In this document: positions 3,785-46,338 of the stretch, piece after piece
Numbering within the stretch: the stretch's first letter is position 1
How the letters are laid out: each line of letters begins with the position of its first letter
Origin: Cytobacillus firmus
GTDB lineage: Bacteria > Bacillota > Bacilli > Bacillales > Cytobacillaceae
Reading direction: 5' to 3'
NCBI RefSeq assembly: GCF_023657595.1
Contig: NZ_CP098323.1
Span: forward strand, 4,178,001-4,242,000
Length of the DNA: 64,000 nt
The notes under the pieces: generated by a model
What the model was told of the DNA's origin: nothing
What the model saw: only the letters and a program-made list of their open reading frames with translations
Database searches by the model: none
Translations under genes and position numbers: made by a program

Positions 3785-4144
3785 GTGAAACTTCAATCAG
3801 TGGGAGTTTTCCTTATCCCCCACTGATTGTTAGTTGAGGCCAACAGGACAAGGAGGGCTTCGTCAGCATGAGCATCGCACGACCGAAAGCGTTAGCTGTT
3901 GGGAGGAAGCGGGTCACAAAGACGTTGCCACAGGACTAGGAAAGCTACGGCAGCTTTTGGGAGGATGTGGCGTTCTTAGTCTTGTCCTTCTTTCGGGCCT
4001 TTACATTATAAAGCGAGGCGACTTGCCCAGGGGTGACAAGCGAGCCCCTAGGAGCCGCAGCTGGATTGGGCAGTTTGACCACCACTTATCCTCCTTTGAT
4101 TCCTCTGAATCTTGAAGTGGGGTCATACTGCCCGTTAGACTGCG
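3785..4144 (+). repeat. Family A modular repeat, copy A1
   Basis: The copy runs from GTGAAACTTCAATCAGTGGG to CCCGTTAGACTGCG and is flanked by ATAAA on both sides. Its left end forms a hairpin (CAATCAGTGGG with CCCACTGATTG). Its right end pairs GGGCAGT with ACTGCCC around a CCTCCTTTGATTCCTCTGA loop. It fills most of the 428-bp gap between rocR and the globin gene; short ORFs inside it look spurious. Confidence 0.85.
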
Positions 4145-4176
4145 ATAAAAAACGAAAAGCTCCCCACGGGGAGCCT
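4145..4176 (-). terminator. Terminator of truncated globin gene
   Basis: On the minus strand GGCTCCCC/GGGGAGC forms a stem followed by TTTTCGTTTTTT. The stem overlaps the TAG stop codon, and the T-run is the ATAAAA edge of repeat A1. Confidence 0.8.
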
Positions 4177-4540
4177 ATTTGTATAAAATATCGTCCCGAA
4201 GCGCTGCAACACGAGTCAAAGCTTCATCGATATCCCTCTCACTCACTCCAAAATGCGCAAGTGCATCATGCAGATGCCTGGCAATCGCATCAAAGTGTTC
4301 CGGCTGCAGATTCATGCCCTCATGTGCTTTTGCCATGGAATTGCCTGAATATTGATTAGGCCCTCCCAGAGCATAACTGATGAACTTGGATTGATGGCGT
4401 TTCTGCTTTACCATATCGGTATGCTCGAAAAACTGATTGACGGTCGGATCCTTCAATACCAGTTCCTCGTAAAAATAATCGACAACCTTTTCAATAGATT
4501 CTCCGCCGCCTACTTTTTCGTAAAGTGTCTGCTCTGCCAT
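4175..4540 (-). CDS. Group 1 truncated hemoglobin
   Basis: This 121-residue protein has the 2-over-2 truncated globin pattern: LYEKVGGGESIEKVVDYFYEEL at the start, FFEHTDMVKQKRHQSKFISYALGG in the middle, and KAHEGMNL with the probable haem-ligating His73. Such proteins bind O2 or NO and commonly protect against nitrosative stress. The ATG at 4540 is used because AAAGGAGAG lies six bases upstream; an upstream in-frame start would overlap this ribosome site. It is monocistronic, with its own terminator. The physiological ligand cannot be read from sequence. Confidence 0.9.
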   Translation of the reverse strand: MAEQTLYEKVGGGESIEKVVDYFYEELVLKDPTVNQFFEHTDMVKQKRHQSKFISYALGGPNQYSGNSMAKAHEGMNLQPEHFDAIARHLHDALAHFGVSERDIDEALTRVAALRDDILYK

Positions 4541-4641
4541 ATTTATCTCTCCTTTCAACAAACTATATTCTTTGCTAACTGACAGCTCCTATTCAAAATT
4601 TTACAGTCTAAATCAATTTACCTTTACCCTATTATCTTCTC

Positions 4642-4675
4642 AAAAAACAAAAAAGACTCCGAGGGTACGGAGCCT
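4642..4675 (-). terminator. Terminator of nhaC-type gene
   Basis: On the minus strand GCTCCG/CGGAGT forms a stem around TACCCT, followed by TTTTTTGTTTTTTG. It lies just after the antiporter stop codon. Confidence 0.85.
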
Positions 4676-4680
4676 GAGAT

Positions 4681-6108
4681 TTAAGAAGCTAATTGATCTT
4701 TCTCTTCCATTTCTTTTCGTTCCTGATCACTCATGAATGTTATTTTGTAGCCAAGCATCGCAAAGACAATAGCCAGAATCGGCACAGTGAAATTTAAAAT
4801 CGCGTATGGTGCATATTCAAATGGATGAACCGCCAGAGTTGACATGATAAACACCGCACAGGTATTCCAAGGAACAAAAACGGACGTGACGGTACCTCCA
4901 TCTTCAAGGGCCCGCGAAAGATTTTTAGATTGCAGATTTTTATCCTTAAATGCCTGTGTGTACATTCTGCCCGGCAGCAGAATGGAAATGTACTGCTCTG
5001 CAGCGGCTACATTGGTAAAGAAAGCAGATAGCACGGTAGTGGCTACTAAGCTTCTTGCTGAACGGGCCAATTTCAGGATCTGTTCAACAATGGCTTTTAG
5101 CATCCCGGTCTGCTCCATAACTCCTCCAAATGCCATCGCCACTATCGTAAGGGACACAGTATACATCATATCGTCAATGCCGCCTCTATTAAATAGCTCG
5201 TCCACCATCGTGTTTCCTGATTCAATCGAAAACCCGCCCTGGAGTGTATTCACAGCATCCCCTGCAGCGCCCCCCTGTACAAAAATATGGCAAAGCCAGC
5301 CAAGGAAAACACCAATAGCAAGCGCGGGCAATGCAGGAACTTTTTTTGCCACTAATCCTATAACAATTAAAGGAACCAATAATAGCCAAGGGGAGATGAC
5401 AAAGTTCTCCGCTAAAACATTCATGACACCAGAAATTTTATCATTATTCAAATCATCCCCGCCAAATTGCCTTCCCAAAAACCAGTAAGCGATAATGGCA
5501 ATGGCCAGCGCTGGAAGGGTTGTGTAAAACATATGTTTTATATGTTCAAAAAGATCTGTACCAGTAATTCCTGCAGCCAAATTAGTCGTATCTGACAGGG
5601 GTGACATTTTATCTCCGAAATAGGCGCCTGAGATGATAGCTCCCGCCACCATTGGAGCCGGAATGCCCATGCTGATCCCAATTCCCATTCCGGCGACGCC
5701 AATCGTTCCCATTGTAGACCATGAACTTCCGATTGCCAGAGTGACGATGGCACAGATAATACAAATTGAGACTAAAAACATGGATGGAGTCATTAGCTTT
5801 AATCCGTAAAAGACCATGGTCGCTACAATTCCTCCGCCAATCCAGGAGCCAATTGTCAAACCGACCATTATAATAATCAGAATTGCCGGGAGCGCTAACT
5901 TAATGCCTTTATAGAAGCCCTCCTCAATATCGTTCCATTTATAGCCAAAACGCCATGCGATGAAAGCGGATACAATTGTTCCGGCAATTAAAGGCACATG
6001 TGGGCTCCCTTCAAACTTAACAATCGTAATAATCATTGCAGCAATCATTACCAGCAGCGGCAGCACTGCAAACCAGAAGGGAATTTTCTTTCCTGTTGTT
6101 TCTTTCAT
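4681..6108 (-). CDS. nhaC: NhaC-family Na+/H+ antiporter
   Basis: This 475-residue protein has about eleven or twelve hydrophobic helices and is of usual NhaC length. Motifs visible include IGSWIGGGIVATMVFYGLK, LAIGSSWSTMGTIGVAG, and ISGAYFGDKMSPLSDTTNLAA, the acidic and serine/threonine-rich signature of the family. It exchanges cytoplasmic Na+ for external protons at the membrane. NhaC paralogues can also carry malate/lactate or organic acids (MleN type), so the substrate is uncertain. The ATG has AAGGAGG ten bases upstream. It appears monocistronic and is one of three cation/proton transport systems in the window, with mrp and yuiF. Confidence 0.88.
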   Translation of the reverse strand: MKETTGKKIPFWFAVLPLLVMIAAMIITIVKFEGSPHVPLIAGTIVSAFIAWRFGYKWNDIEEGFYKGIKLALPAILIIIMVGLTIGSWIGGGIVATMVFYGLKLMTPSMFLVSICIICAIVTLAIGSSWSTMGTIGVAGMGIGISMGIPAPMVAGAIISGAYFGDKMSPLSDTTNLAAGITGTDLFEHIKHMFYTTLPALAIAIIAYWFLGRQFGGDDLNNDKISGVMNVLAENFVISPWLLLVPLIVIGLVAKKVPALPALAIGVFLGWLCHIFVQGGAAGDAVNTLQGGFSIESGNTMVDELFNRGGIDDMMYTVSLTIVAMAFGGVMEQTGMLKAIVEQILKLARSARSLVATTVLSAFFTNVAAAEQYISILLPGRMYTQAFKDKNLQSKNLSRALEDGGTVTSVFVPWNTCAVFIMSTLAVHPFEYAPYAILNFTVPILAIVFAMLGYKITFMSDQERKEMEEKDQLAS

Positions 6109-6310
6109 AATGTTCCTCCTTTTAAAGTTACACGTCTGTTGGTTTAACTATTGCAAGATTAATGCCAAGATATAAAATTCAAGCATTTTTCAGACTATTT
6201 ACCCTAAAAAAATTTAATTTACATCGGTTTTATGTAAGTAAGCATGCAAAATATATTGTCGAGCGCCCGCTCATTTTGCATACAAAAGCAAATATTTTTT
6301 GCATCAAATA

Positions 6311-6344
6311 AAAATAAAAAACCGGGCAGCAAAACCCGGTTTTC
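6311..6344 (-). terminator. Terminator of yugI
   Basis: On the minus strand AAAACCGGG/CCCGGTTTTTT forms a strong stem with a T-rich tail, directly after the yugI stop codon. Confidence 0.88.
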
Positions 6345-6351
6345 ATTTTTA

Positions 6352-6750
6352 TTACTTCTTAATAAGATCCTCGCGCTGGGACTGGTCAATCCACTCTTGG
6401 AGCTTATCCTTAAGTGTATTGAATCCCTGTGCAGATTCGTCTTCCATTTTGATTGGAGCTGCCTGGCGCTTGCGAGGCTTTCTTGCTTTCGTTTCTGCTT
6501 GTGGCGCTTCTTCTGTTGCACGGATTGATAAACCGATTTTTCCTGCTGCTTCGTCAACAGAAAGAACCTTCACTTTTACTTCATCGCCCACTTTAAGATG
6601 CTCATTAATATCTTTTACGAAACCATGAGTCACTTCGGAAATGTGGACTAATCCCTGTGTATTCTCATCTAATGCTACGAACGCACCATATGGCTGAATA
6701 CCCGTTACCTTTCCTGTAATAACACTGCCTACTTCGATTTTCTCAGACAT
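6352..6750 (-). CDS. yugI: S1-domain RNA-binding protein YugI (general stress protein 13 type)
   Basis: This 132-residue protein opens with one S1 RNA-binding domain (about 5-73: GSVITGKVTGIQPYGAFVAL, GLVHISEV, LKVGDEVKVKVLSVD). A basic linker rich in Lys and Arg follows, then an acidic and amphipathic C-terminus. This matches YugI/CvfD, which associates with ribosomes. The ATG at 6750 was chosen because AGGAGTG precedes it by five bases; a longer start has no ribosome site. It heads the run of genes syntenic with B. subtilis yugI-alaT-alaR-yugF-yugE-patB, though a small regulator gene is inserted before alaT. Confidence 0.92.
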   Translation of the reverse strand: MSEKIEVGSVITGKVTGIQPYGAFVALDENTQGLVHISEVTHGFVKDINEHLKVGDEVKVKVLSVDEAAGKIGLSIRATEEAPQAETKARKPRKRQAAPIKMEDESAQGFNTLKDKLQEWIDQSQREDLIKK

Positions 6751-7029
6751 GAAAACACTCCTATTTAAATTCAAATTTTATCTCTTTATACGCAATAAGA
6801 AATTATATCACAACTTGATCAAAATATCAAAAGGAATTCAAATGGAAACCCCAGACATTTTAATCCCATTGGGAATCACAGACTTTCATTCATTATAATA
6901 AAACAATCCGCAAACAATATGTAGACATTCTATTTGTTTGTTAACTAAATGTTCATGAAGTACAAAAAGGATCATGCGTTTAACATGATAAAATAAAGAT
7001 AGAAGAAATTGTTAGTGGGAGTGATGGAT

Positions 7030-7395
7030 ATGTCAAATATAGGCCATAACATTAAAGCTTGCCGCGAACGCGCAAATATGACCCAGCAGCAGCTCGCATT
7101 AAAGGTGAGAGTGGGGACGGGTACGATTGCAAAATACGAAAATGGAGATCAGATTCCTGATACACAGACTGTTTTAAAAATCTCAACAGCCCTGGATATT
7201 CCAGCTTCCGAACTGCTTGAACAGGAAATGCAGAAGGGCCAGTCAGGAATCGATTATGAAATCGAACAGCTTGTGCGTGAAATTGGCACAAAAAAAGCAA
7301 AGCTTATCTTAAGGAAAGCTAAGGAATTCAGTGAGGAAGATTTCCTCCGTGTCATGCAAATGCTATATGAAATTAAATATGATCAAAAAGTTTAA
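7030..7395 (+). CDS. XRE-family HTH transcriptional regulator
   Basis: This 121-residue protein has a Cro/C1-type HTH at about 4-62 (IGHNIKACRERANMTQQQLA, VGTGTIAKYENGDQIPD, VLKISTALDIPASELLE). A charged helical tail ending in SEEDFLRVMQMLYEIK may dimerise. The ATG at 7030 is preferred over one at 7024 because GGGAG lies eight bases before it. It sits alone on the plus strand between yugI and alaT, interrupting the B. subtilis order, and is followed by two terminators. Its targets are unknown. SinR-like or host-acquired regulators are alternatives. Confidence 0.85.
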   Translation: MSNIGHNIKACRERANMTQQQLALKVRVGTGTIAKYENGDQIPDTQTVLKISTALDIPASELLEQEMQKGQSGIDYEIEQLVREIGTKKAKLILRKAKEFSEEDFLRVMQMLYEIKYDQKV

Positions 7396-7410
7396 TAAAA
7401 GAGAGTATAT

Positions 7411-7468
7411 AAAAAGGGAATACTGGTTAGCCTTGAAGTATAAGGCTTTCTAGTATTCCCCCCTTTTT
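7411..7468 (+). terminator. Terminator of XRE regulator gene
   Basis: The long stem GGGAATACTGG/CTAGTATTCCC with an internal AGCCTT/AAGGCT hairpin is followed by CCCTTTTT. Confidence 0.8.
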
Positions 7469-7474
7469 GAAGTT

Positions 7475-7503
7475 GACAATCTGTTGTGGATTGTCCTTTT
7501 TTT
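7475..7503 (+). terminator. Second plus-strand terminator before alaT end
   Basis: The stem GACAAT/ATTGTC is followed by CCTTTTTTT on the plus strand. It backs up the preceding terminator and would stop read-through into the antisense of alaT. Confidence 0.7.
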
Positions 7504-8677
7504 ATGCTTTCTGATTCTGCTTTATAAAATGGCTAATTCTCTTGATCGCTTCCTGCAGAAGTTCCATGGAGGTGGCATAAGAGCAGCGCACATGGCCTTC
7601 CCCGCTTTCGCCAAAAATATTGCCTGGCACGACCGCTACCTTTTCCTCCAGCAGCAGTTTTTCTGCAAATTCTTCAGAAGAAAGTCCCGTACTTTCAATA
7701 GATGGGAAAGCATAAAAGGCTCCACCCGGCATATGGCAGGTTAATCCCAGTTCATTTAGAGACTGAACAAAATAATTCCGCCTGCGCTTATAGCTCTTTT
7801 TCATAACCTCAACATCTGATCTGCCAGTCTTCAAGGCTTCAAGTGCAGCAAACTGTGCCATCGTAGGTGCGCACATCATCGCATATTGGTGAATTTTCAG
7901 CATTGCCTGCGAGATCTCCTCAGGAGCGCAGACAAACCCCAATCTCCAGCCTGTCATGGCAAACCCCTTTGAAAATCCCGAAATTAAGATTGTTCTTTTC
8001 TTCATCTCTCTGATGGCGGCAAAACTCGTATACTCATCATCATAAGCAAGCTCTGCATATATTTCATCAGAAAGAACCAGCAAGTCGTACTTTTCAGCTA
8101 TTTGTGCAATTGCGTTCAGTTCATCTCCGGATAACATTGTTCCAGTCGGATTATTGGGCGAACAAAGCATAATGGCTTTAGTCCTGCCGGTTATTGCGTT
8201 TTCCAGCTGCTCAGGCAGAATCTTAAACCCATTCTCCTTTAAAGTCTGGACCTGCACAGGCACACCTCCCGCAAGAGTTACTAAGGGAACATAGGAAACA
8301 AAGCTTGGTTCAACCACAATTACTTCATCACCCGGATCAAGGATTGCCCTTAGAGATATATCCAATGCCTGGCTCGCTCCCACCGTAACGATAATTTCAT
8401 TTTGGGGTGAATAAGAAACTCCGAAGCTTTTTTGCATATAATCTGCAATTTCCTCCCGCAGCTCCATTAACCCGGCATTAGCCGTATAAGAGGTATATCC
8501 CTGCTCAAGTGAAAGGATGGCTGCTTCACGCACTGACCAGGGTGTGATAAAATCAGGTTCACCCACCCCAAGGGAAATGACTCCTTCCATTCCTGCAGCA
8601 AGGTCAAAAAAGCGGCGAATCCCGGAAGGCTTCAGCTCTTCTACCGTTTTGGATAAATAAGACTTTGTTCCCTTCAT
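7502..8677 (-). CDS. alaT: Alanine-forming aminotransferase AlaT
   Basis: This 391-residue class I/II PLP aminotransferase transfers an amino group to pyruvate to make alanine in the B. subtilis family member (YugH). Visible motifs are SLGVGEPDF near the start, SYTANAGLMELREEIA, LCSPNNPTGTML, LSDEIYAEL, and the PLP lysine in SGFSKGFAMTGWRLG, with PGNIFGESGEGHVRCSYA near the end. The ATG shares one base with the TAA of alaR (TAATG), so the two are translationally coupled and form an operon. Other aspartate-type aminotransferase activities cannot be excluded from motifs alone. Confidence 0.92.
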   Translation of the reverse strand: MKGTKSYLSKTVEELKPSGIRRFFDLAAGMEGVISLGVGEPDFITPWSVREAAILSLEQGYTSYTANAGLMELREEIADYMQKSFGVSYSPQNEIIVTVGASQALDISLRAILDPGDEVIVVEPSFVSYVPLVTLAGGVPVQVQTLKENGFKILPEQLENAITGRTKAIMLCSPNNPTGTMLSGDELNAIAQIAEKYDLLVLSDEIYAELAYDDEYTSFAAIREMKKRTILISGFSKGFAMTGWRLGFVCAPEEISQAMLKIHQYAMMCAPTMAQFAALEALKTGRSDVEVMKKSYKRRRNYFVQSLNELGLTCHMPGGAFYAFPSIESTGLSSEEFAEKLLLEEKVAVVPGNIFGESGEGHVRCSYATSMELLQEAIKRISHFIKQNQKA

Positions 8678-10199: not shown

Positions 10200-10201
10200 A
10201 A

Positions 10202-10236: not shown

Positions 10237-10239
10237 ACT

Positions 10240-11784: not shown

Positions 11785-11796
11785 TAGTGTGTGGAG

Positions 11797-11821
11797 GCAC
11801 GGCTGGAAGGCCGTGCTTTTT
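11797..11821 (+). terminator. Terminator of patB
   Basis: GCACGGC/GCCGTGC forms a stem with a six-base loop, followed by TTTTT. Confidence 0.88.
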
Positions 11822-11844
11822 GCGTTGTGCGAGATTGCGGTGGC

Positions 11845-12688
11845 CGGTCTGATTAAGTACCCTTTTCGTTGGTCGTTCTTCATTTTGGACGTTATTCCCT
11901 CTGATTAACTACCATATTTCTTTGGTCGCTTCACTTTTGGGCGTTATCCCCTCTGATTAATTACCATTTTCTCTAGTCGCTCTCCTTCTTCGGCGTTATT
12001 CCCTCTGATTAACTACCATTTTTCTTTGGTCGCTCCACTTTTCGGCGTTATTCCCTCTGATTAACTACCAGTTTCTCTAGTCGCTCTCCATTTCGGCGTT
12101 ATTTCCTCCGATTAACTACCATTTTTCTTTGGTCGCTCCACTTTTCGGCGTTATTCCCTCTGATTAACTACCATTTTTCTTTGGTCGCTCCACTTTTCGG
12201 CGTTATTCCCTCCGATTAACTACCATTTTTCTTTGGTCGCTCCACTTTTGGGCATTATCCCCTCTGATTAATTACCATTTTCTTTAGTCGCTCTCCTTCT
12301 TCGGCATTATCCCCTCTGATTAACTACCAGTTTCTTTGGTCGCTCCACTTTTCGGCGTTATTCCCTCCGATTAACTACCATTTTTCTTTGGTCGCTCCAC
12401 TTTTGGGCATTATCCCCTCTGATTAATTACCATTTTCTTTAGTCGCTCTCCTTCTTCGGCGTTATTCCCTCTGATTAACTACCAGTTTCTTTGGCCGCTC
12501 CACTTTTCGGCGTTATTCCCTCCGATTAACTACCATTTTTCTTTGGTCGCTCCACTTTTGGGCATTATCCCCTCTGATTAATTACCATTTTCTTTAGTCG
12601 CTCTCCTTCTTCGGCGTTATTCCCTCTGATTAACTACCAGTTTCTTTGGCCGCTCCACTTTTGGGCGTTATCCCCTCTGATTAATTAC
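11845..12688. repeat. 52-bp tandem repeat array 1 (about 16 units)
   Basis: The array contains about sixteen head-to-tail units whose core reads CTCTGATTAACTACCA then TTTCTTTGGTCGCTCCACTT and GGCGTTATTCC. The unit length is 52 bp throughout. Subtype variants recur in a three-unit (156-bp) order in the second half: GATTAATTACC with TTTAGTCGCTCTCC, then ACTACCAGTTTC, then ACTACCATTTTTC with GGGCATTATC. The first unit is degenerate. The array starts after the patB terminator and ends a few bases past the stop codon of the NERD gene. No gene is visible in it. Confidence 0.95.
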
Positions 12689-23992: not shown

Positions 23993-24347
23993 TATTGTCA
24001 TTATTGTGCTGATTATACTGGGTGCTTTTTTAAGCCTTGTCGCTGCATATGGCGTTATCAGGCTTCCTGATGTTTATACCAGGAACCATGCGGCATCAAA
24101 GTCCGCTACACTGGGGGTTATGTCCATACTGCTTGGAGCCCTGCTGTTCTTTTATGTTAAAGATGGCTTTTTCAATTCCAGAGTGCTGCTCGGAATTATA
24201 TTCATCTTCATGACATCACCTGTAGCCGGGCATTTAATTGCCCGGGCAGCTTATAACTCCGGTGTAGAGCTATGGGATAAAAGTGTACAGGATGACTTGA
24301 AAGATGCACCACATATGAAAAAGGCAAGCAGCAAGGAACAATCATAA
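23976..24347 (+). CDS. mrpG: Na+/H+ antiporter subunit MrpG
   Basis: This 123-residue, three-helix protein has the MrpG pattern VAAYGVIRLPDVYTRNHAASKSATLG (here GVIRLPDVYTRNHAASKS) and FIFMTSPVAGHLIARAAYNSG. It closes the mrp operon. Its TAA stop codon is embedded in the ATAAA that borders a family A repeat, so the last codons may have been set by that insertion; the soluble tail KKASSKEQS is of ordinary length. No conventional terminator follows, but the repeat begins with a hairpin. Confidence 0.95.
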   Translation: MNEIANIVIIVLIILGAFLSLVAAYGVIRLPDVYTRNHAASKSATLGVMSILLGALLFFYVKDGFFNSRVLLGIIFIFMTSPVAGHLIARAAYNSGVELWDKSVQDDLKDAPHMKKASSKEQS

Positions 24348-24348
24348 A

Positions 24349-24612
24349 GTGAAACTTCAATCAGTGGAGTTTTTTCCCACTGATTGTTAGTTGAACCAAT
24401 CGGGCCTTTACATTATAAAGCGAGGCGACTTGCCCAGGGGTGACAAGCATAAGACGAGCAGATGGTGGGAAGTGCTTTTCTTCCCATCAGCTGATTGGCT
24501 TATGACCTCGAGCCCCTAGGAGCCGCAGCTGGATTGGGCAGTTTGCCCCCGCTTATCCTCCTTTGATTCCTCTGAGTCTTGAAGTGGGGGTCTTACTGCC
24601 CGTTAGACTGCG
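24349..24612 (+). repeat. Family A modular repeat, copy A2
   Basis: The copy starts GTGAAACTTCAATCAGTGG immediately after the mrpG stop codon and ends CCCGTTAGACTGCG before ATAAA. It has the left-end hairpin, the GCATAAGACGAGC/GGCTTATGACCTCGAG module and the right-end GGGCAG/CTGCCC hairpin, but lacks the central module present in A3. It is joined to A3 by a single ATAAA. Confidence 0.88.
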
Positions 24613-24617
24613 ATAAA

Positions 24618-25066
24618 GTGAAACTTCAATCAGCGGGGAGTGCTTTTCTCCCCGCTGATTGTTAGTTGAGGCCCACAGGACAAGGAAGGCTTCGTCAGCA
24701 TGAGCATCGCACGACCAAATGCGACAGCTTTTGGGAGGAAGTGGGTCACAAAGACGTTGCCACAGGACAAGGAAAGCTGCGGCAGCGATACATCGCACGA
24801 CCGAAAGCGGCAGCTTTTGGGAGGATGTGGCGTTCTTAGTCTTTGTCCTTCTTTTGGGCCTTTACATTATAAAGCGAGGCGACTTCCCCAGGGGTGACAA
24901 GCATAAGACGAGCAGATGGTGAGAAGTGCTTTTCTTCCCATCAGCTGATTGGCTTATGACCTCGAACCCCTAGGAGCCGCAGCTGGATTGGGCAGTTTGA
25001 CCCCGCTTATCCTCCTTTGATTCCTCTGAGTCTTGAAGTGGGGGTCTTACTGCCCGTTAGACTGCG
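24618..25066 (+). repeat. Family A modular repeat, copy A3 (full length)
   Basis: At 449 bp this is the longest family A copy. In order it has the left hairpin (CAATCAGCGGGG with CCCCGCTGATTG), two related modules with ATCGCACGACC and CAGCTTTTGGGAGGA, the CATAAGACGAGC/GGCTTATGACCTCG hairpin, and the right-end GGGCAGTTTGACCCC/GGGGTCTTACTGCCC hairpin. ATAAA flanks both ends. Together with A2 it fills the 766-bp gap between mrpG and yuxO; no gene is visible. Confidence 0.88.
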
Positions 25067-25076
25067 ATAAATAGGA

Positions 25077-27443: not shown

Positions 27444-27517
27444 GCAGGGTAACCTCCTTCATTTTCAATCCCTTCTCTATTTAATATGCAGATGTCCTTA
27501 TTTTGAGTGGGCGGCCA

Positions 27518-27639
27518 GGAAAGCGGAAGCGCCTTGCTCACCCCCGACAAGCACAAGACGAGCCTCACGGAAAGGCGTCCTTTGCCTTTTTGTGAGGATT
27601 GGCTTGTGACCTCGAGGGGGGTAGGCGCTGGAGCTAGAC
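27518..27639. repeat. Family B repeat, copy B2
   Basis: The 122-bp copy starts GAAAGCGGAAGCGCC and ends GGCGCTGGAGCTAGAC. It carries one inner module, GCACAAGACGAGCC to GGCTTGTGACCTCGAG, a hairpin. B2-B4 lie head to tail, separated by ACAGCACTAG-like joints, and fill the 775-bp gap between the Gly/Pro/Tyr gene and ald. Confidence 0.85.
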
Positions 27640-27645
27640 AGCACT

Positions 27646-27887
27646 AGAAAAGCGGAAGGCGCCCGCTTATAAAGGAACGCAGACTAAAACCGCCACGTCC
27701 TGTGGCAACGTCTGCATGACCTGCATCCTCCCAAAAGCTGTCGCTTTTGGTCGTGCGATGTTTATGCTGACGAAGCCTTCCTTGTCCTGCGGGCCTCAAG
27801 CATAAGACGAGCCGGCTAAAAGGTTGTTCTTTAACCTTTTGGACGGATTGGCTTATGACCTCGAGCCGATGGCGCCTGGAGCTAGAC
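27646..27887. repeat. Family B repeat, copy B3 with family A-like module
   Basis: This 242-bp copy has family B ends. Inside it is the module TCCTCCCAAAAGCTGTCGCT, GGTCGTGCGATG and GAAGCCTTCCTTGTCCT, which is the family A central module in the opposite orientation, followed by the CATAAGACGAGCC/GGCTTATGACC hairpin. Confidence 0.85.
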
Positions 27888-27893
27888 AACACT

Positions 27894-28166
27894 GGAAAAG
27901 CGGAAGCGCCTTGTCCACCCCCGACAAGCACAAGACGAGCCTCCATAAAGGCGTCCTTTGCCTTTTTGTGAGGATTGCCCGAAATGTGGAGGCGACTGCC
28001 AAGGGAAGACAGGCATAAGACGGTTCCTGTAAGAAGGTGTTTTTTCCTTCTGAAAGTTAACGGCTTATGACCCCGAGTCCCTAGGAGCCGAAACTAGACA
28101 AGCTTGTGACCTCGAGGGGGCAGGCGCTGGAGCTAGACAGCACTAGAAAAACGGAAGGCGCCCTGA
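27894..28166. repeat. Family B repeat, copy B4 plus partial copy
   Basis: The copy 27894-28138 carries two hairpin modules (GCACAAGACGAGCC, then GGCATAAGACGGTTCC to GGCTTATGACCCCGAG) before the GGCGCTGGAGCTAGAC end. A fragment at 28143-28166 repeats the left end only. No gene is visible. Confidence 0.82.
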
Positions 28167-28178
28167 CTGCACAAAACA

Positions 28179-28212
28179 AAATCCCCTTAGCCTTTTGGCC
28201 AAGGGGATTTTT
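28179..28212 (-). terminator. Terminator of ald
   Basis: AAATCCCCTT/AAGGGGATTT forms a long stem with inner GCC/GGC pairing, followed by TGTTTTG on the minus strand. Confidence 0.85.
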
Positions 28213-34057: not shown

Positions 34058-35080
34058 ATGGAACAAAATACAGCTTCCAAAAAACTGTTTGGATTCGTTA
34101 AAACTCTTTTACAGCCTGATCCGGAGATCAATTTAACTCCAAGGACTGCAGTATGGAAAAGAAATAAGGCAACTCTCTGGCACTATGCCCCTTCCAGCAA
34201 AAAATACAGTATCCCCATTTTCCTTGTCTATTCACTTGTCAATCAGCCCTTTATCTTAGACCTGGGACCACAGAACAGTTTAATCGAAGCTTTGGTTAAC
34301 AGCGGGTATGATGTCTATTTGCTGGATTTCGGGATTCCGGGCTATGAGGATAAAGACATTACGATGGAAGATTATATTACTGAATACATCCAGAAGGGGG
34401 TAAAAAGAGCTTTATATCACTCGGGAGCAGACGAAATAACTGTGATGGGCTTTTGCCTGGGAGGCACCTTTGCAGCCATTTATGCGGCCATTGCGGATGA
34501 ACCGGTCAAAAACTTAGTATTGTCTGTTGCACCAGTTGATTTCAGCATTGTCCCGGTCTTTGATAAATGGGCAGATGAACTGCGAAATGGAGAAGGCAGC
34601 CTGGAAACCACTTTTGATGCATGGGGACTTATCCCCGCCTTTGCCATTAAATCAGGTATGCGGCTATTTACTTCCCCCCTCTATTACTCTCCATATTTAT
34701 CGCTTCTGGCCAGGGCCGACGATGAAGCATATGCGTCCCGCTGGAAGCGATTTAACCATTGGACCAATGGCCATATTCCATTTGCAGGGGCTGCACTGAA
34801 GCAAATCCATCAAGATCTTTTAAAAGACAATAAGCTTGTGAACGGTACATTAACGATCGGAGAAAAGAAAGCCGCACTCAGTAATATTAAAGCTAATTTG
34901 CTCGCTGTCGCGTCAGATAATGACCGACTTGTTCCAAAAGAGCAGATTCTTCCGGTCATGGACCTGGTGTCCAGTGCTGATAAAACTTTTCATCTCCTTC
35001 AGGGCGGGCATGCCAACCTTACTTCAGAAGGAAAAGTTCCTGACTATATGGACAAATGGCTGTCAGCAAGATCAGGATAA
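34058..35080 (+). CDS. phaC: Class III/IV-type polyhydroxyalkanoate synthase PhaC
   Basis: This 340-residue alpha/beta-hydrolase has the PHA synthase lipase-like box GFCLGG with catalytic Cys133, a catalytic Asp in ASDNDRLVP (Asp287 or Asp289) and His318 in GGHANLTSEGK. The NHWTNGHIPFAG segment resembles the PhaC W-motif region. It would polymerise 3-hydroxyacyl-CoA into storage polyester at granules. Its length is slightly below the usual 355-362. It lies third in the SDR-PhaR-like-PhaC operon. Its TAA stop codon sits in the ATAAA border of a family A repeat, which may have trimmed the C-terminus. Confidence 0.82.
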   Translation: MEQNTASKKLFGFVKTLLQPDPEINLTPRTAVWKRNKATLWHYAPSSKKYSIPIFLVYSLVNQPFILDLGPQNSLIEALVNSGYDVYLLDFGIPGYEDKDITMEDYITEYIQKGVKRALYHSGADEITVMGFCLGGTFAAIYAAIADEPVKNLVLSVAPVDFSIVPVFDKWADELRNGEGSLETTFDAWGLIPAFAIKSGMRLFTSPLYYSPYLSLLARADDEAYASRWKRFNHWTNGHIPFAGAALKQIHQDLLKDNKLVNGTLTIGEKKAALSNIKANLLAVASDNDRLVPKEQILPVMDLVSSADKTFHLLQGGHANLTSEGKVPDYMDKWLSARSG

Positions 35081-35081
35081 A

Positions 35082-35151
35082 GTGAAACTTCAACTCCTCC
35101 ATTGATTCCTCCGAGTCTTAAAGTGGGGGTCTTACTGCCCGTTACACTGCG
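35082..35151 (+). repeat. Family A repeat, short copy A4
   Basis: This 70-bp deletion derivative joins GTGAAACTTCAA directly to CTCCTCCATTGATTCC and TGCCCGTTACACTGCG. It begins immediately after the phaC stop codon and lacks all central modules. Its right border is mutated to GAAAAA. Confidence 0.8.
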
Positions 35152-35215
35152 AAAAATATAATATTTATCATTCCCCTGCCTCGCAGGGGATTCAATATTT
35201 AAAGGAGGTAACTTG

Positions 35216-35478: not shown

Positions 35479-35982
35479 ATGGACTTGAAGATTTTCAAGG
35501 CAATCAACCGTTTATCCGGTCGTATAGCATTTATTGATTATTTAATGATTCTTTTATCAAATAGGGCAAGGTATTTATTTTTATTTGTCCTGGCATGCAT
35601 GTGGCTGGCCAAAGGACCTTCCAGAACAGCCGCAAAAAAAGCTGCTGCTGCTTCTCTGATTGCAATCTTTGTAAATAAGGTTCTAAAAATTTGTTATTTC
35701 AGGCCCCGTCCCTTCATAAAAAATAAGGTTGGCCTATTAATTCCAGCCAAAAGAGACTCAAGTTTTCCAAGCAAGCATACAGTAGTTTCGTTTGCTGCTT
35801 CTATCGTCATTTTTTACGGAAACCAATTTATAGGCCGTATTTTGCTGTGGGTTTCAGCATGTACAGGCTTCGCCCGCATCTGGGCAGGCCACCACTACCC
35901 TTCCGATGTTATTGGCGGTGCTCTTATTGGCGGAACAATAGGCTGGTTCACAGAAAAACTTTCAAAACCAGAAATAAAGTGA
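35479..35982 (+). CDS. PAP2-family phosphatase (undecaprenyl-pyrophosphatase type)
   Basis: This 167-residue membrane protein has the three PAP2 motifs: KVLKICYFRPRPF, FPSKHTVVSF (Ser and His) and ARIWAGHHYPSDVIGG with the nucleophile-region His and Asp. BcrC-like members dephosphorylate undecaprenyl pyrophosphate during wall synthesis. The ATG at 35479 is chosen because AGAAGGAG lies upstream; a longer in-frame start at 35407 lacks a site. The TGA stop codon lies inside the first bases of a family A repeat (ATAAAGTGA), so the C-terminal residues may have been set by the insertion. Confidence 0.85.
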   Translation: MDLKIFKAINRLSGRIAFIDYLMILLSNRARYLFLFVLACMWLAKGPSRTAAKKAAAASLIAIFVNKVLKICYFRPRPFIKNKVGLLIPAKRDSSFPSKHTVVSFAASIVIFYGNQFIGRILLWVSACTGFARIWAGHHYPSDVIGGALIGGTIGWFTEKLSKPEIK

Positions 35983-36234
35983 AACTTCAATCAGTGGGGG
36001 TTTTCCTTATCCCCCACTTATTGTTAGTCGCGTTCTAGTGTCGCTAAGATCTCCGCTAGCGCTTCGATCAATCGACACTACGAACCCGATTGGTTCAACT
36101 AAGCCTCTGCCTGCGCGTCGGCAAGTTTCACTGTATCTCACCAATCGGGCCTTTACGGGCAGTTTGCCCCCCGCTTATCCTCCTTTGATTCCTCTGAGTC
36201 TTGAAGCGGGGGTCTTACTGCCCGTTAGACTGCG
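35979..36234 (+). repeat. Family A repeat, variant copy A5
   Basis: This 256-bp copy has the usual ends (GTGAAACTTCAATCAGTGGG and CCCGTTAGACTGCG with ATAAA borders). The centre is different, with CGCGTTCTAGTGTCGCTAAG and GATCAATCGACACTACGAAC, apparently another inserted module. Its first bases supply the TGA of the PAP2 gene. It occupies most of the 367-bp gap before racA. Confidence 0.83.
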
Positions 36235-36349
36235 ATAAAAAAAATGTAAAATCCGCACTTTCTTTAGCGAAAGAAAACTTGTTTTGTCAGCCGGGAAGGA
36301 CTTCACGTTAAACGGGTAGAATTCCTTGTGAAAACGGGAGGGGATCAGT

Positions 36350-37506: not shown

Positions 37507-37566
37507 TGAAGCCACCTCCGTTCCATTTCTTTTATCGTACCCTACTTTAAGGGCTGATAACAAAAC

Positions 37567-37929
37567 AAAAGCGGAAGCGCCTTGCCCACGATAGAACGCA
37601 GACTAAAAGCGCCACGTCCTGTGGCAACGTCTGCATGACCCCCATCCTCCCAAAAGCTGTCGCTTTCGGTCGTGCGATGTTTTTGCTGTCGAAGCCTTCC
37701 TTGTCCTGGGGGCCTCAAGCACAAGACGAGCCTTCCGGAAAGGCGTTCTTTGCCTTTTTGGGAGGATTGCCCGAAATGTGGAGGCGACTGCCCAGGGACG
37801 ACAGGCATAAGACGGTTCCTGTAAGAAGGCGTTTTTCCTTCTGAAAGGAAACGGCTTATGACCCCGAGTCCCTAGGAGCCGAAACAAGACAGGCTTGTGA
37901 CCTCGAGGGGGTAGGCGCTGAAGCTAGAC
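37567..37929. repeat. Family B repeat, composite copy B6
   Basis: The copy starts AAAAGCGGAAGCGCCTTG and ends GTAGGCGCTGAAGCTAGAC. It contains the family A-like module (CCTCCCAAAAGCTGTCGCT, GGTCGTGCGATG), then two hairpin modules (CACAAGACGAGCC and CATAAGACGG with GGCTTATGACC). It fills most of the 519-bp gap between yuiH and yuiF. Short reading frames here are not genes. Confidence 0.83.
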
Positions 37930-37982
37930 GTAGATAAATTCTTCCACAGAGTTATATACAAATCGCGATTTTATAATTTCCT

Positions 37983-38021: not shown

Positions 38022-38025
38022 ACGA

Positions 38026-39557: not shown

Positions 39558-39568
39558 TGATTTCACTT

Positions 39569-41071: not shown

Positions 41072-41149
41072 ACTGGCACCCCCATAATCTATTTATCTCT
41101 TATTATATCGAAAATATTGAATTATTTCGACTATCTAATTTCTGCTTTG

Positions 41150-41527: not shown

Positions 41528-41619
41528 GAAATCACTCCATTTTCCGGATCTTGTACTAGTCATTTTAACAAAAAACTCTTTTCGTATAAATCGTTGTTTT
41601 TCATCAGCAATGTGGCCCG

Positions 41620-41748
41620 TTGATTTCCGCTCCAGGATGCTCAGCGAACCGCGGGGCGGGCGGTGAGCCTCCTCAACGCTGCGCGTCTGCGGGGTCTCAC
41701 CTGTCCCGCTACTCCCGCCGGAGTCTCGCACCTTCCGCTCCAATCAAC
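41620..41748. repeat. GC-rich Bacillaceae-type intergenic repeat
   Basis: This tract is strongly GC-rich against AT-rich flanks. It runs from GTTGATTTCCGCTCCAGGAT through CGAACCGCGGGGCGGGCGGT and AGGCTCACC-type elements to CTCGCACCTTCCGCTCC and AATCAAC. The outer GTTGATT/AATCAAC is inverted, and TTCCGCTCC occurs near both ends. The same type of repeat is familiar in many Bacillaceae genomes. It creates a false N-terminal extension for the DUF309 gene. Confidence 0.8.
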
Positions 41749-41869
41749 TCAGCAAATAATATATATCAATCAAGCAACAAACTGTGAAAACAGCCTAACA
41801 AAAAGAAAAGAGATTAAATATAATCATTAATTATTGGGTAAAGAAAATAGAGACAGAAAGGAGAATGTA

Positions 41870-42535: not shown

Positions 42536-42614
42536 AGCAGACCCTCTTGCAGGAAGGAACAATCTGTTGGAGAATATTAGTTAGTATAACATTACGAAGT
42601 TCCTGAATCTGCAG

Positions 42615-43165
42615 AATCCGAGCCAGGTATAGCTTCGGACACAGGAAGCTGAAATGAGCTGGTCAAGGTCCGAACATGGTTTTACTTCAGACAAAAAATG
42701 CAGAAATAAGCTGGTCACAGTCTGAACATGGCTCAACTTCGGACACAAATTGCTGAATTGAGCTGGTCAGAGTCCGAACATGGCTCAACTTCGGACACAA
42801 AGTGCTGAATTGAGCTGGTCAGAGTCCGAACATGGCTCAACTTCGGACACAAATTGCTGAATTGAGCTGGTCAGAGTCCGAACATGGTTCAACTTCGGAC
42901 ACAAATTGCTGAATTGAGCTGGTCAGAGTCCGAACATGGCTCAACTTCGGACACAAATTGCTGAATTGAGCTGGTCAGAGTCCGAACATGGTTCAACTTC
43001 GGACACAAATTGCTGAATTGAGCTGGTCAGAGTCCGAACCCGGTTCAACTTCAGACACAAAAAGTGCAAAAAACAACTCAGAGTCCGAACATGGCTCAAC
43101 TTGGGACACAAAAAGTGCAAAAAAAACTCAGAGTCCGAACACGATTCAACTTCAGAAAGCAGAAT
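42615..43165. repeat. 52-bp tandem repeat array 2 (about 10 units)
   Basis: About ten head-to-tail units share the core CTGAATTGAGCTGGTCAGAG then TCCGAACATGGCTCAACTTC and GGACACAAATTG, with a 52-bp period. Six central units are almost identical; outer units are degenerate. Each contains GTCCGAA and TTCGGAC as an inverted pair around CATGGCTCAAC, so each could form a hairpin. The array ends about 45 bp before yuiD, in its promoter region. Confidence 0.93.
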
Positions 43166-43209
43166 AGAATTCAAAGATGGAGTATCATACAACCCAAAGG
43201 TGGTCTCAC

Positions 43210-43686
43210 ATGGAATTATTGACAAATTTCCCCCTATGGTCTGCTTTGGCAGCCATCTTCTTTGCCCAATTTGTAAAAGTGCCCATTCAATTTATTGCCA
43301 CCCGAAGAGTGGATTGGTCCCTTTTAACCAGTACAGGCGGAATGCCAAGCTCACACTCAGCTGCAGTAACTGCCCTTTCAACCGGGGTGGCACTTGAAAC
43401 CGGAATGGACTCTGCTGTTTTCGCTGTTTCTGCCGTTTTTGCCATTATCACTATGTTTGATGCTACGGGAGTGCGGCGTCAGGCCGGGGAACAGGCGATT
43501 GTATTAAACCAGCTTGTTGCCGACTTCAATAAATTCGTTGAAGAAGCAAAGACATGGCAGAAAAAAGCTGGCCAGGAAAAACAGAAAGAATTGAAGGAGC
43601 TGCTGGGCCATAAGCCGATAGAAGTACTCTTTGGGGGCCTGACTGGAATTTTATTAACTTTAGGGCTTCATTATTTATTTTCCTAA
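43210..43686 (+). CDS. yuiD: Divergent PAP2-family membrane protein YuiD
   Basis: This 158-residue protein has the DivPAP2 signature: FVKVPIQFIATRRVDWSLLTSTGGMPSSHSAAVTAL (key GGMPSSHSA) and MFDATGVRRQAGEQA, with hydrophobic helices and a charged middle loop. It is a divergent phosphatase-like membrane protein of unknown substrate. The ATG at 43210 has AAAGGTGG seven bases upstream; a longer frame from 43177 runs into the tandem array. It is followed 14 bp later by the cobalamin-binding gene. Confidence 0.9.
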   Translation: MELLTNFPLWSALAAIFFAQFVKVPIQFIATRRVDWSLLTSTGGMPSSHSAAVTALSTGVALETGMDSAVFAVSAVFAIITMFDATGVRRQAGEQAIVLNQLVADFNKFVEEAKTWQKKAGQEKQKELKELLGHKPIEVLFGGLTGILLTLGLHYLFS

Positions 43687-43700
43687 AGGTTGTGATGTAA

Positions 43701-44483
43701 ATGAAAATCCTTTCCTTATGCCCAAGCAATACTGAATTAGTGGAATACTTGGGATTGACTGATATGCTTGCCGGCGTGGACGATTATTCGGATTGGCCGG
43801 AGCAAATTTCCAATCTGCCCAGGCTGGGTCCTGACTTGTCTATTAACATGGATAAAGTGGAGGAACTGCAACCGGACCTTGTGCTTGCCTCCCTGAGTGT
43901 ACCCGGCATGGAAAAGAATGTAGCAGAGCTTGAAAAAAGGCAGATTCCCCATATTGTCTTAAATCCCCAAAGCCTCGCAGATATTGCAAATGACCTGGTT
44001 TTTACTGCTGAAAAAATCGGGATGCCTGAGAGAGGGATTTTGGCGGCTAAACAGTTTACGGAGAAAATAGAGGAACTTAAGCACATCTCAAGCAGGATTG
44101 AAAAAAAACCAAGCCTCTATTGGGAATGGTGGCCAAAGCCTGTGTTTACTCCTGGCAAGGTCAATTGGCTGACGGAAATCAGTGAAATAGCCGGTGGACG
44201 GAATTTATTTGCTGATGTTGAGCTTGCAAGTGTCCAGACTGATTGGGAGGATGTCCTGAATCGGCAGCCGGATTATATCTGTCTCGCCTGGGTCGGTGTC
44301 AGAAGAGAAAAGGTGAATCCGGAGATTGTCCTGAATCGTCCAGGCTGGAGTGAAATGGGAGCAGTAAAACAGGAAAGAATCCTGGTTTTGGAAGAAGAAC
44401 TGTATTGCAGGCCTTCACCGCGGCTGATTGAAGGCGCCATAAAATTAGCAGAAAAGATTCATCCGCAGGCATTTTCTGTTTGA
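43701..44483 (+). CDS. Cobalamin/substrate-binding-protein-like protein without signal peptide
   Basis: This 260-residue protein resembles BtuF-type metal-chelate/cobalamin-binding proteins: MKILSLCPSNTELVEYLGL, LGPDLSINMDKVEELQPDLVLA and WEWWPKPVFTPGKVNWLTE. It has no signal peptide or lipobox, so it would be cytosolic, unlike the extracytoplasmic binding proteins of ABC importers. No BtuC or BtuD gene lies nearby. A ribosome site is weak (AAAGGTTG). It may bind a corrinoid or metal chelate inside the cell, but the ligand is inferred. Confidence 0.78.
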   Translation: MKILSLCPSNTELVEYLGLTDMLAGVDDYSDWPEQISNLPRLGPDLSINMDKVEELQPDLVLASLSVPGMEKNVAELEKRQIPHIVLNPQSLADIANDLVFTAEKIGMPERGILAAKQFTEKIEELKHISSRIEKKPSLYWEWWPKPVFTPGKVNWLTEISEIAGGRNLFADVELASVQTDWEDVLNRQPDYICLAWVGVRREKVNPEIVLNRPGWSEMGAVKQERILVLEEELYCRPSPRLIEGAIKLAEKIHPQAFSV

Positions 44484-44490
44484 TAATACA

Positions 44491-44526
44491 AAAAGGCAAA
44501 TCCGTTCATTGCGGATTTGCCTGTCT
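44491..44526. terminator. Terminator between binding-protein gene and yuiC
   Basis: AGGCAAATCCG/CGGATTTGCCT forms a strong stem between convergent genes, with short T-rich tails (TGTCTT on the plus strand). Confidence 0.8.
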
Positions 44527-44531
44527 TCTGT

Positions 44532-45245
44532 TTATTTTTTCTCAGATTTGATATATTGCTGTCTGAAAACCTGCATGGCTTCATTTTCATTCAGTAACCT
44601 TAAATCTTCTTCCGTAAGGGTTCCATCGCCCATTTCAACAATGTAAACATCGAGCGTTTTCTTTCCCCAATTATTATAAACATCATCAACCGTTTCATAA
44701 TAGAGATCCAATTTATTCCCCTTAATGGCACCGCCTTTATCAGCTACAACACCATACCCATAATCAGGAATAAACAGGATCGTCCCAATCGGAAAAACAT
44801 TTAAATCTGCTGCGACTGTAGAGTATAAGTCCCTTTTAACTTTAACACCTGAGTATGTAATGCCAAAGGACGGATGATCCGGATTTTTTCCTGTCGACTC
44901 GTAAAAAGCTGTATATCCGGTAGCAATTACTTGTTTTTTCTGATACTGCGACCAGTCAATTGATTCCTCCAGTGTCGGCGCCTGTTCAATTGCGACAGCT
45001 TCACTCGCAGAAATCTTCGGTTCCAGGCTCACGGCCTGCTTCAAAAACTTAAATGCTACGCCAACCGATTTTAATGTATGTTCAAAATCTGAATTTCCAT
45101 CTTTGCCAGCTTGTTCAGCATTTTGCTGCAGCTGTACAATTGATCTTGCTTCCACCCCGGAAATCGAATGGAAAGTTGTCAATAATGCACCTATAAATAA
45201 GGCAGACATTACTGTACGTTTCATCCATTTTGTAATTATGTTCAT
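44532..45245 (-). CDS. yuiC: 3D-domain protein YuiC
   Basis: This 237-residue exported protein has a signal peptide (about 1-34) and a C-terminal 3D domain (about 120-215: [59 protein letters not shown]). The acidic Asp residues in ADKGG and DLY give the family its name. YuiC is a lytic-transglycosylase-like enzyme that acts on peptidoglycan. GGGAGGAG precedes the ATG. It is convergent with the upstream gene and downstream of yuiB on the same strand. Confidence 0.9.
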
Positions 45246-45437
45246 CTTTTACACTCCTCCCAAAGTTAGTCATTTCCCTTCTTCGAGAGAAATATTCATA
45301 ACTTATGGGAAAGAAAGGCTTCCATCAGCCAATTACAGACAGGATAAAGCCAGTAATACCATAGGCTTGCCCGATTTGATCACACTAATCAAAAAAAATA
45401 AAAAATCCCCACACCCGGCAGAGATTTCAACACTAAT

Positions 45438-45761
45438 TTAAAACATCCGATATCCTTTTTTACGGAGCAGTCTAATCGTGATTCCGGCAACAATGGCGCC
45501 TGCCATTCCGCTGCTGAGTATAAGGATGTCCGCCAAAGCGAGGCTGGACATTTCTACTCCAAGACTGGAAAACGATTCCTCCGGTTTTTGAAAATACTCA
45601 ATGAAACGAACTTTATCAATGATAAAAATGGCAATTACGGGATAAATAATAGCCATAATCCAAGACATTCTTAATAGCATATTTAATATAAAACCTATTC
45701 CAAAAAACAGCACAAAAAACAGAAGCATCGAAATAGGCAAAACGAAAATCGTCATTTGCAT
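45438..45761 (-). CDS. yuiB: Membrane protein YuiB
   Basis: This 107-residue protein has three hydrophobic helices (ILPISMLLFFVLFFGIGFIL-like VLPISMLLFFVLFFGIGF, MAIIYPVIAIFIIDKV and LADILILSSGMAGAIVAGI) and a basic tail. It matches the YuiB family in length and position between yuiC and yuiA. Function is unknown. GGGAGG lies about ten bases before the first ATG; a second ATG two codons later is a possible start. Confidence 0.82.
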   Translation of the reverse strand: MQMTIFVLPISMLLFFVLFFGIGFILNMLLRMSWIMAIIYPVIAIFIIDKVRFIEYFQKPEESFSSLGVEMSSLALADILILSSGMAGAIVAGITIRLLRKKGYRMF

Positions 45762-45825
45762 GAACTTGTTTCCTCCCTTAACACATCAATAATTAGTTTA
45801 CTTTATTGTGGATTGGGGAGTCAAC

Positions 45826-45856
45826 AAGAAAAGCGGGTGTGTCAATACACCCGTTA
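45826..45856 (-). terminator. Terminator-like hairpin downstream of copy A6
   Basis: On the minus strand CGGGTGT/ACACCCG forms a stem followed by CTTTTCTTGTT. It could end transcription from yuiA through the repeat. Confidence 0.65.
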
Positions 45857-45896
45857 TGAAAAGAAAAACTTCGCTGCTCGCGAAGTTTGACTTTAT

Positions 45897-46338
45897 CACA
45901 GTCTAACGGGCAGTAAGACCCCCACTTCAAGACTCAGAGGAATCAAAGGAAAGTGGGGTCAAACTGCCCAATCTAGCTGCGGCTCCAAGGGGCTCGAGGT
46001 CATAAGCCGATCAGCTGATGGGAAGAAAAGCACTTCCCACCATCTGCTCGTCTTATGCTTGTCACCCCTGGGCAAGTCGCCTCGCTTTATAATGTAACGG
46101 CCCGAAAGAAGGACAAAGACTAAGAACGCCACATCCTCCTAAAAGCTGCCGCTTTCGGTCGTGAGATGTATCGCTGCCGTAGCTTCCTTGTCCTGTGGCA
46201 ACGTCTTTGTGACCCACTTCCTCCCAAAAGCTGTCGCATTTGGTCGTGCGATGCTCATGCTGACGAAGCCTTCCTTATCCTGTGGGCCTCAACTAACAAT
46301 CAGTGGGGGATAAAGCCCCCCACTGATTGAAGTTTTAC
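45897..46338 (-). repeat. Family A modular repeat, copy A6 (near full length)
   Basis: On the minus strand this 442-bp copy reads GTAAAACTTCAATCAGTGGG to CCCGTTAGACTGTG, flanked by ATAAAGT on both sides. It has all modules seen in A3, including the double ATCGCACGACC module and the GCATAAGACGAGC/GGCTTATGACC hairpin. The yuiA TAA lies in the ATAAA border. It fills the 578-bp gap between yuiB and yuiA; no gene is visible. Confidence 0.86.

Follow-up and report, generated by a model that had tools for sequence, protein, structure and literature searches.

Family A, an abundant non-autonomous repeat of Cytobacillus firmus and other Bacillota with hairpin ends and an element-borne stop codon, and its possible movement as a single-strand element

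We analysed a 64,000-nt stretch of the Cytobacillus firmus genome (the window; RefSeq assembly GCF_023657595.1, contig NZ_CP098323.1, positions 4178001-4242000 of a single 4.98-Mb contig), which contains six copies of a non-coding repeat, Family A. The copies are 360, 264, 449, 70, 256 and 442 bp long, the first five on the plus strand and the last on the minus strand. The window sequence and a genome-wide search placed them where an initial annotation, made from the letters alone, had put them. Copy 1 occupies 3785-4144 (3780..4149 with both ATAAA borders), and the nearest upstream gene on the same strand, encoding a sigma-54 activator, stops 38 bp short of it. Copy 2 (24349-24612; 24344..24617 with borders) and copy 3 (24618-25066; 24613..25071) stand head to tail with one ATAAA common to both, and the TAA stop codon of mrpG (24345-24347) lies inside the left ATAAA of copy 2. 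In one relative (L094) the copy 3 locus has a single ATAAA and no element. The internally deleted copy 4 (35082-35151; 35077..35156) has the TAA of the phaC-like gene (35078-35080) inside its left ATAAA, and copy 5 (35979-36234; 35974..36239) has the TGA of the PAP2 gene (35980-35982) in its first bases. Copy 6 (45897-46338; 45892..46343, minus strand) holds in its left ATAAA the TAA (46340-46342, minus) of the gene called yuiA in the initial annotation, which corresponds to Pfam DUF5351. Thus the four window genes proposed to stop in the border or first bases of a copy do so; copies 2 and 3 form a tandem with one ATAAA, so the score is four of five independent insertions.

The left end is ordered ATAAA-GTGAAACTT-hairpin-TTAG and the right end hairpin-GTTAG-ACTGCG-ATAAA. 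The two end modules are constant, the interior is variable, and neither end is an inverted repeat of the other. In copy 5 the left-end hairpin spans 35988..36027 (plus strand; arms 35988-36000 and 36011-36023, foot TTAG 36024-36027) and the right-end hairpin 36155..36228 (plus strand; outer arms ACGGGCAGT at 36155-36163 and ACTGCCCGT at 36217-36225, foot TAG 36226-36228). The proposed shared start GTGAAACTTCAATC and end GTTAGACTGCG were recovered, although two of the six starts are altered and two of the six ends carry one change. Likewise, a hairpin at both ends and ATAAA borders describe the family in general, but the 70-bp copy at 35082 lacks the left hairpin and has AAAAA as its right border. 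The ends stay constant over lengths of 44 to 450 bp and the open reading frames overlapping the six copies are short and do not track the elements (by eye), in agreement with the proposed absence of coding capacity. A form of about 450 bp had been taken as the norm; the commonest lengths in this genome are about 148 and 256 bp, and in other genera many copies are about 150-170 bp (by eye).

The interior of the two longest window copies matches the Bacillaceae-1 RNA family (Rfam RF01690) on the strand opposite to the element (24721-24854 in copy 3; 46105-46237, plus strand, in copy 6). This RNA is no more than an interior module of Family A, and the window's Family B repeats contain it too. C. 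firmus DS1 (L092) has a 380-bp element at the PAP2 site, against 256 bp here, and AMY 5.1.1 has an empty site. The interior can therefore differ at one site, which suggests exchange or deletion inside resident copies.

Both hairpins are paired, the left one with covariation. In 29 short copies of this genome (28 distinct), chosen by their ends alone, which makes this the unbiased sample, 97.4% of the cells pair and 8 of the 26 pairs are changed on both sides. None of 500 shuffles equalled this, and sliding the partners by 1-3 columns gave at most 53% pairing and 3 such pairs. The left hairpin holds seven of the eight double-changed pairs of this sample, which is 7 of its 13 pairs. In the right hairpin 99.2% of the outer-arm cells pair, and 7 of the 9 outer pairs never vary in this genome. 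A wider set was drawn from this genome, a second species (G018) and plasmid records, and the patterns used to cut its two alignments (A1, A2) prescribe the left foot and a portion of the arms, so that its pairing and foot counts are partly so by construction: 42 left ends gave 96.3% pairing with double changes in 7 of 13 pairs, and 44 right ends gave 98.0% with 7 double-changed cells (0/500 shuffles) and 2 double-changed pairs (reached by 50/500 shuffles). The left foot reads TTAGT after the hairpin in 99 of the 101 copies of at least 100 bp in this genome and ATAGT in the remaining two. One copy folded as single-stranded DNA gave -38.1 kcal/mol (z -8.2). Hairpins near both ends in the absence of long terminal inverted repeats are found in IS200/IS605 transposons as well.

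The genome-wide search that the initial annotation had called for yielded about 107 copies. The left end has 109 matches (at most 2 mismatches) and the right end 105 (at most 3), and the patterns read backwards have none. The 107 copies were curated from 82 contiguous stretches (480 kb), with 11 of 118 matched rows dropped as chance or duplicate matches; two of the kept copies lack a right end. Lengths cluster at 143-148, 208-211, about 255 and about 380 bp, and the others range from 44 to 450 bp. ATAAA stands on both sides in 82 of 105 copies, which would suit a classical miniature inverted-repeat transposable element (MITE) moved by a DDE transposase, with a 5-bp duplication at ATAAA and border differences due to later mutation.

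The borders and their empty sites speak to this possibility. Among the 105 copies with both borders, the left is other than ATAAA in 6 and the right in 21. Where just one border is ATAAA, the left one is kept in 17 of 19 copies (p = 7e-4), a count to be read with caution, since the left pattern by which most copies were detected contains TAAA (with up to two mismatches) and so tends to pick out intact left borders. The joined flanks of 32 sites were compared with four relatives (G052-G055, the genomes of loci L089, L092, L091 and L094). Of 70 aligned loci, 33 had gaps close to the joint and were excluded; the 37 clean ones had no gap within 8 nt and at least 12 of 16 flank identities. Where the two borders are equal, 13 comparisons were clean, and in these the relative has ATAAA (7), GTAAA (2), TTAAA (2), ATATA (1) or AAAGA (1), and the non-ATAAA cases are one or two bases off. 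Such a fixed target of 4-5 nt at the empty site is a property of IS200/IS605 elements. The alignments point to a single ATAAA-like 5-mer that was present before insertion, as the initial annotation had supposed, and the four relatives give no sign of a simple target duplication.

Discordant borders allowed a clean comparison at 11 of 20 sites (24 comparisons). The relative's 5-mer is exactly the right border in 7 comparisons at five sites (375319, 1638152, 3917461, 4213082 and 4787818); at 1638152 it is ATAAC, equal to the right border, in three of three relatives. At all five the relative has a non-ATAAA target, yet the left border is ATAAA or TTAAA. Under duplication the left border would have had to mutate to exactly ATAAA at four of these five sites and to TTAAA at 4787818, whereas a left border carried by the element requires only ordinary point changes. 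By this reasoning the left ATAAA probably belongs to the element, and its right counterpart is probably the target that preceded insertion. No duplication of the target, one border being target and the other the element's own, is again as in IS200/IS605 and rests here on an argument from likelihood. The ends that are not inverted repeats, together with a near-constant left and a variable right border, argue further against the MITE, while one relative each at 1568341 and 987067 has ATAAA where our right border differs, in its favour.

Family A is also biased to one replication strand. GC skew locates the origin close to position 0 and the terminus at about 2.25 Mb. On this basis 75 copies are oriented against replication and 32 with it, compared with 373 and 435 intergenic ATAAA sites (p = 3e-6). 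The ratio against:with is 66:21 outside 2.0-2.6 Mb and 64:28 when counted by cluster; 332 genes run with replication and 131 against. For the second species (G018) the G-rich plus strand (skew +0.09) was taken as leading, and of the first 30 copies 23 are then against replication. Since copies are mostly against replication, the strand reading TTTAT lies on the lagging-strand template, and insertion into that template is characteristic of IS200/IS605. A bias of this kind is not usual for DDE elements, and counts against the MITE, which we regard as unlikely overall.

Group II intron retrohoming can also favour one replication strand, and this supports RNA-mediated spread, in which a resident reverse transcriptase, like that of a group II intron or a retron, would copy a structured RNA beginning with AUAAAGUGAAAC into sites before ATAAN. 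Copies behind genes of the same sense would be transcribed, the hairpins are conserved and the long copies hold a known RNA family. That match is antisense to the element, however, and the upstream gene is oppositely directed in 49 of 107 copies, so that we consider this route improbable. We give similarly little credence to a tyrosine or serine recombinase acting at a short TTTAT/ATAAA core, as has been suggested for the bcr1 repeat. The 5-bp core on both sides and the head-to-tail arrays with one common core fit such an enzyme, but core exchange through a circle should spread variants to both sides, and the left core is ATAAA in 100 of 107 copies. The strand bias is also left without explanation by a recombinase.

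The left border has a further property: depending on the frame, ATAAAGTGA gives a TAA or a TGA stop codon. In 30 of 107 copies the element lies within 5 nt of the end of a gene on its own strand. Of the 97 non-tandem copies, 20 follow a gene that stops at the TAA in their left ATAAA, compared with 37 of the 854 ATAAA sites between genes or on a gene end that served as controls (genes called by a simple codon score), an enrichment of about fivefold (p = 1e-7). When open frames of at least 80 codons are counted, 33 of the 97 copies are docked, 18 through the border TAA, 9 through the TGA of AAAGTGA, 5 with a stop just before the element and 1 further in. Docked copies are co-directional with replication in 14 of 30 cases compared with 332 of 463 genes (p = 0.006).

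Empty sites give examples of how such stops arise. At phaC the nearest relative (L089/L133) reads GGA AAA ATA TGA and five others have two codons followed by TAA, e.g., GGA CAA ATA TAA (L091, L094), while here the gene reads GGA TAA, with the stop in the element border, so the insertion made a stop two codons early. At site 375319 the target of the relatives itself contains TAA (ATAAG, ATAAT). With a TAA in matching register in the target and in the element border, an insertion at a stop codon puts the stop back. Within this genome the evidence for an element-borne stop codon is good, and it may be important more widely.

Taken together, hairpin ends, a fixed pentamer target on one side and an element-borne pentamer on the other, no clear duplication and a lagging-strand bias liken Family A to IS200/IS605 transposons such as ISDra2 and IS608. 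For these two, insertion 3' to a fixed 4-5-mer on the lagging strand without duplication of the target is described (PMC8612924). We propose, as the best reading and a moderately probable one, that Family A is a non-autonomous mobile element working like an IS200/IS605 single-strand transposon. With the right border as old target and the left as the element's own, the active strand would be the one reading TTTAT, opposite to the orientation of the initial annotation. It would read 5'-(N/T)TTAT/CGCAGT-CTAAC-hairpin ... CTAA-hairpin-AAGTTTCAC-TTTAT-3' (slash, element border), where the 5' outer pentamer would be the old host target and the 3' pentamer the element's own. A single strand would be cut from the lagging-strand template and pasted into it 3' of TTTAT with no duplication of the target, and in a circular single-strand form GTTTCACTTTAT would be joined to CGCAGTCTAAC. 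The CTAA at both feet could pair with the TTA of TTTAT. We infer from these features a single-strand chemistry, a trans-acting HUH-type enzyme and a role for the foot motifs. Read the other way, each insertion would bring ATAAAGTGA, and a stop would be kept or made at or just inside the 3' end of a gene, leaving the protein almost unchanged. This may be what allows copies to settle on stop codons. A precedent for transposon ends at stop codons is found in Borrelia, where IS605 stem-loops overlap the ends of lipoprotein genes (PMC2775950).

Several observations weigh against this proposal. The outer arms of the right hairpin are nearly invariant in this genome, and so say little about pairing. 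The right-end foot is not always TTA, being TTG in some genera with the target unchanged, and a search for co-change of guide and target found no variant target, the target being too constant for a test of the match. Among the discordant-border comparisons, two are exactly equal to the left border (987067 and 1568341). The whole set is mixed, with 9 comparisons nearer the right border, 6 nearer the left and 9 ties, or, counted by site, 6 in favour of the right border, 4 of the left and 1 of neither. (The register of the right 5-mer is off at 987067 in this count; one base earlier it reads ATAAG, and by eye the gapped G052 alignment also gives ATAAG.) For the stop codons, a cruder control that puts the left end at every ATAAA, including those inside genes, docks 672 of 2066 placements (TAA 63, TGA 181), and shows an excess in the real copies for TAA only (18 of 97), with none for TGA (9 of 97) or over all frames. 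In 30 copies of the second species docking is not enriched: 2 end a long frame in their first bases and 1 at position 51, none through TAA. The preference for gene stops suggested by the initial annotation is hence seen as an enrichment of TAA use in this genome, but not in those 30 copies. Finally, the TnpA-type gene with matching end hairpins that the annotation proposed to look for was not recovered: the genome has no match to PF01797, none of 60 examined Y1 loci has both Family A ends, and no Y1 transposase was found in G010 or in G094, a genome of another genus with many copies.

These 60 loci were taken from 133 matches, 30 of 59 in the genus and 30 of 74 in 16 genomes of other genera. 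Those 16 genomes have 9 to 23 matches to the left-end model R1, and PF01797 is present in 15 and absent in G094. Within the genus PF01797 occurs in 23 of 36 genomes and, by eye, copy number does not track it: G019 has 74 right ends and G010 has 40, and both are negative for PF01797. In contrast to IS200/IS605 elements, then, a cognate Y1 TnpA was found neither in the genome nor with matching ends among the 60 loci, so that membership of that group fails despite the like working. The mobilisation suggested by the initial annotation keeps its support from the hairpins, the lack of coding sequence, the target, the missing duplication and the strand bias, but not from a matching transposase. The IS200 copies of G008, tried as partners, have ends that differ from those of Family A. 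An integron attC site was also considered: GTTAGAC fits the consensus GTTRRRY, but the joint lies 6 nt further out. Two of the 60 Y1 loci have Family A sequence nearby, L294 a short copy and L303 a left end.

Another candidate enzyme is the REP-associated tyrosine transposase (RAYT, TnpA_REP), which would move Family A as it is thought to move repetitive extragenic palindromes (REP). REPs are intergenic palindromes with a motif at the hairpin foot and a Y1 enzyme as the presumed mover (PMC3733652, PMC8266576). Family A resembles them as described there in its many intergenic palindromes and its hairpin-foot motif, and RAYT-like genes occur in G002, G018, G054 and G055. In contrast to REPs, it has two different end hairpins, a variable interior and no GTAG or CGTC tag (tags as in PMC3733652). 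G000 and G010 gave no match, the only match in G052 was at chance level and G053 has an unlike open frame of 96 aa, and a RAYT query of the C. firmus genome gave no match with E up to 10. In the genomes whose RAYT loci were read (G002, G054 and G055) the genes are flanked by GGTGACAGGCACC-type repeats instead of Family A ends, and RAYT was rejected as a partner. Movement by RAYT is accordingly very unlikely. RAYT-like genes of C. firmus relatives at L229, L230 and L231 have GGTGACAGGCACC-type flanks. At L303 a Family A left end lies about 560 bp before a same-strand RAYT-like gene, with GGACAGGAACC-type repeats between and after.

Family A is not restricted to one species. Across 25 genomes of the genus the left-end counts range from 0 to 168, and the right-end pattern is present in 26 of 36 genomes. 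Within the order, model R1 (E at most 0.001, with rough E-values, strict filters and our own genome included) matched 79 of 249 genomes, representing 50 of the 106 genera sampled; within the class it matched 44 of 398 genomes, from 25 of 146 genera. Whole elements, many of 150-170 bp, were seen in most of 40 loci and in several of a further 20 that were read, and by eye several right borders in other genera are ATAAG, ATAAT, GTAAA, ATCAA, ATTAA or ACAAA. Pseudalkalibacillus hwajinpoensis (NZ_CP156675.1) has a whole copy, Peribacillus asahii (NZ_CP085722.1) the left part of one beside a gene end, and Cytobacillus oceanisediminis (NZ_CP062791.1) a sequence match only. Family A is thus a real, abundant and widespread family of non-autonomous elements.

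The closest described repeat is bcr1 of the group A Bacillus cereus repeats bcr1-bcr3, which we compared by description only. It is described as non-coding, about 150 bp long, folded, of high and variable copy number, with a TTTAT motif and often located in untranslated regions (PMC6542083, PMC3446304, PMC2267715); plasmid copies and confinement to the B. cereus group are likewise given in PMC6542083. Family A shares with it the TTTAT ends, the length of about 150 bp, the folding and the high copy number. Unlike bcr1, with its B. cereus group range as stated in that text, Family A occurs in Cytobacillus, Pseudalkalibacillus, Peribacillus and many other genera. Family A queries matched no B. 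cereus or B. thuringiensis plasmid, and the one 36-nt match in B. arachidis is not an element. Okstad 2004 reportedly placed TTTAT at each end of bcr1. In the open-licence literature six Family A pieces of 15-20 nt had no match, and none of the titles and abstracts listed in further searches there described the family.

A more far-reaching view, which we hold only tentatively and think rather doubtful, is that Family A represents a large unnamed family of single-strand elements in dozens of Bacillota genera, bringing its own stop codon, and that its mover is not a recognisable Y1 transposase. If the proposed model holds, one anatomy would cover a wide class of Bacillota intergenic repeats, perhaps including the unexplained TTTAT of bcr1, and the rule could be tested: a TTTAT target, the lagging strand and a stop codon brought by the element. 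The model would also show a way for a mobile element to insert at gene ends with almost no harm, and would raise the question of which enzyme moves Family A in genomes that have no Y1 transposase.

Some further observations concern the sequence records. A short Family A-type copy is present in the 'Klebsiella grimontii' plasmid pNY3A record (CP079755.1, L241), which probably holds Bacillaceae DNA. In the G042 draft, many of the listed contigs start 33-79 bases ahead of a Family A right end, so the repeats break assemblies. As for carriage by phages, one 20-mer had no exact match in viral_contigs and a copy from our genome had none in 'phages'. The phaC-like protein of the window shares 98% identity with the protein of a record labelled Paenibacillus sp. 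FSL R5-0490, and 94-96% with those of three labelled Cytobacillus firmus. The records of L089 and L097, labelled Paenibacillus and Pseudomonas, have Cytobacillus-like phaC regions, and the labels look wrong.

The window has other repeats as well. A second family (AAAGCGGAAGCGCC...GGAGCTAGAC) lies at 27490-28180 and 37540-37935 and matches Bacillaceae-1 RNA at 67 and 57 bits; its copy at 37.5 kb is absent from L090-L094. Tandem arrays of units of about 52 nt occupy 11813-12688 (14 overlapping repeat copies) and 42560-43131 (8 copies). A match to the Bacillus small RNA ncr1241 was detected at 7439-7502, scoring 62.6 bits, just above the gathering score of 60 bits.

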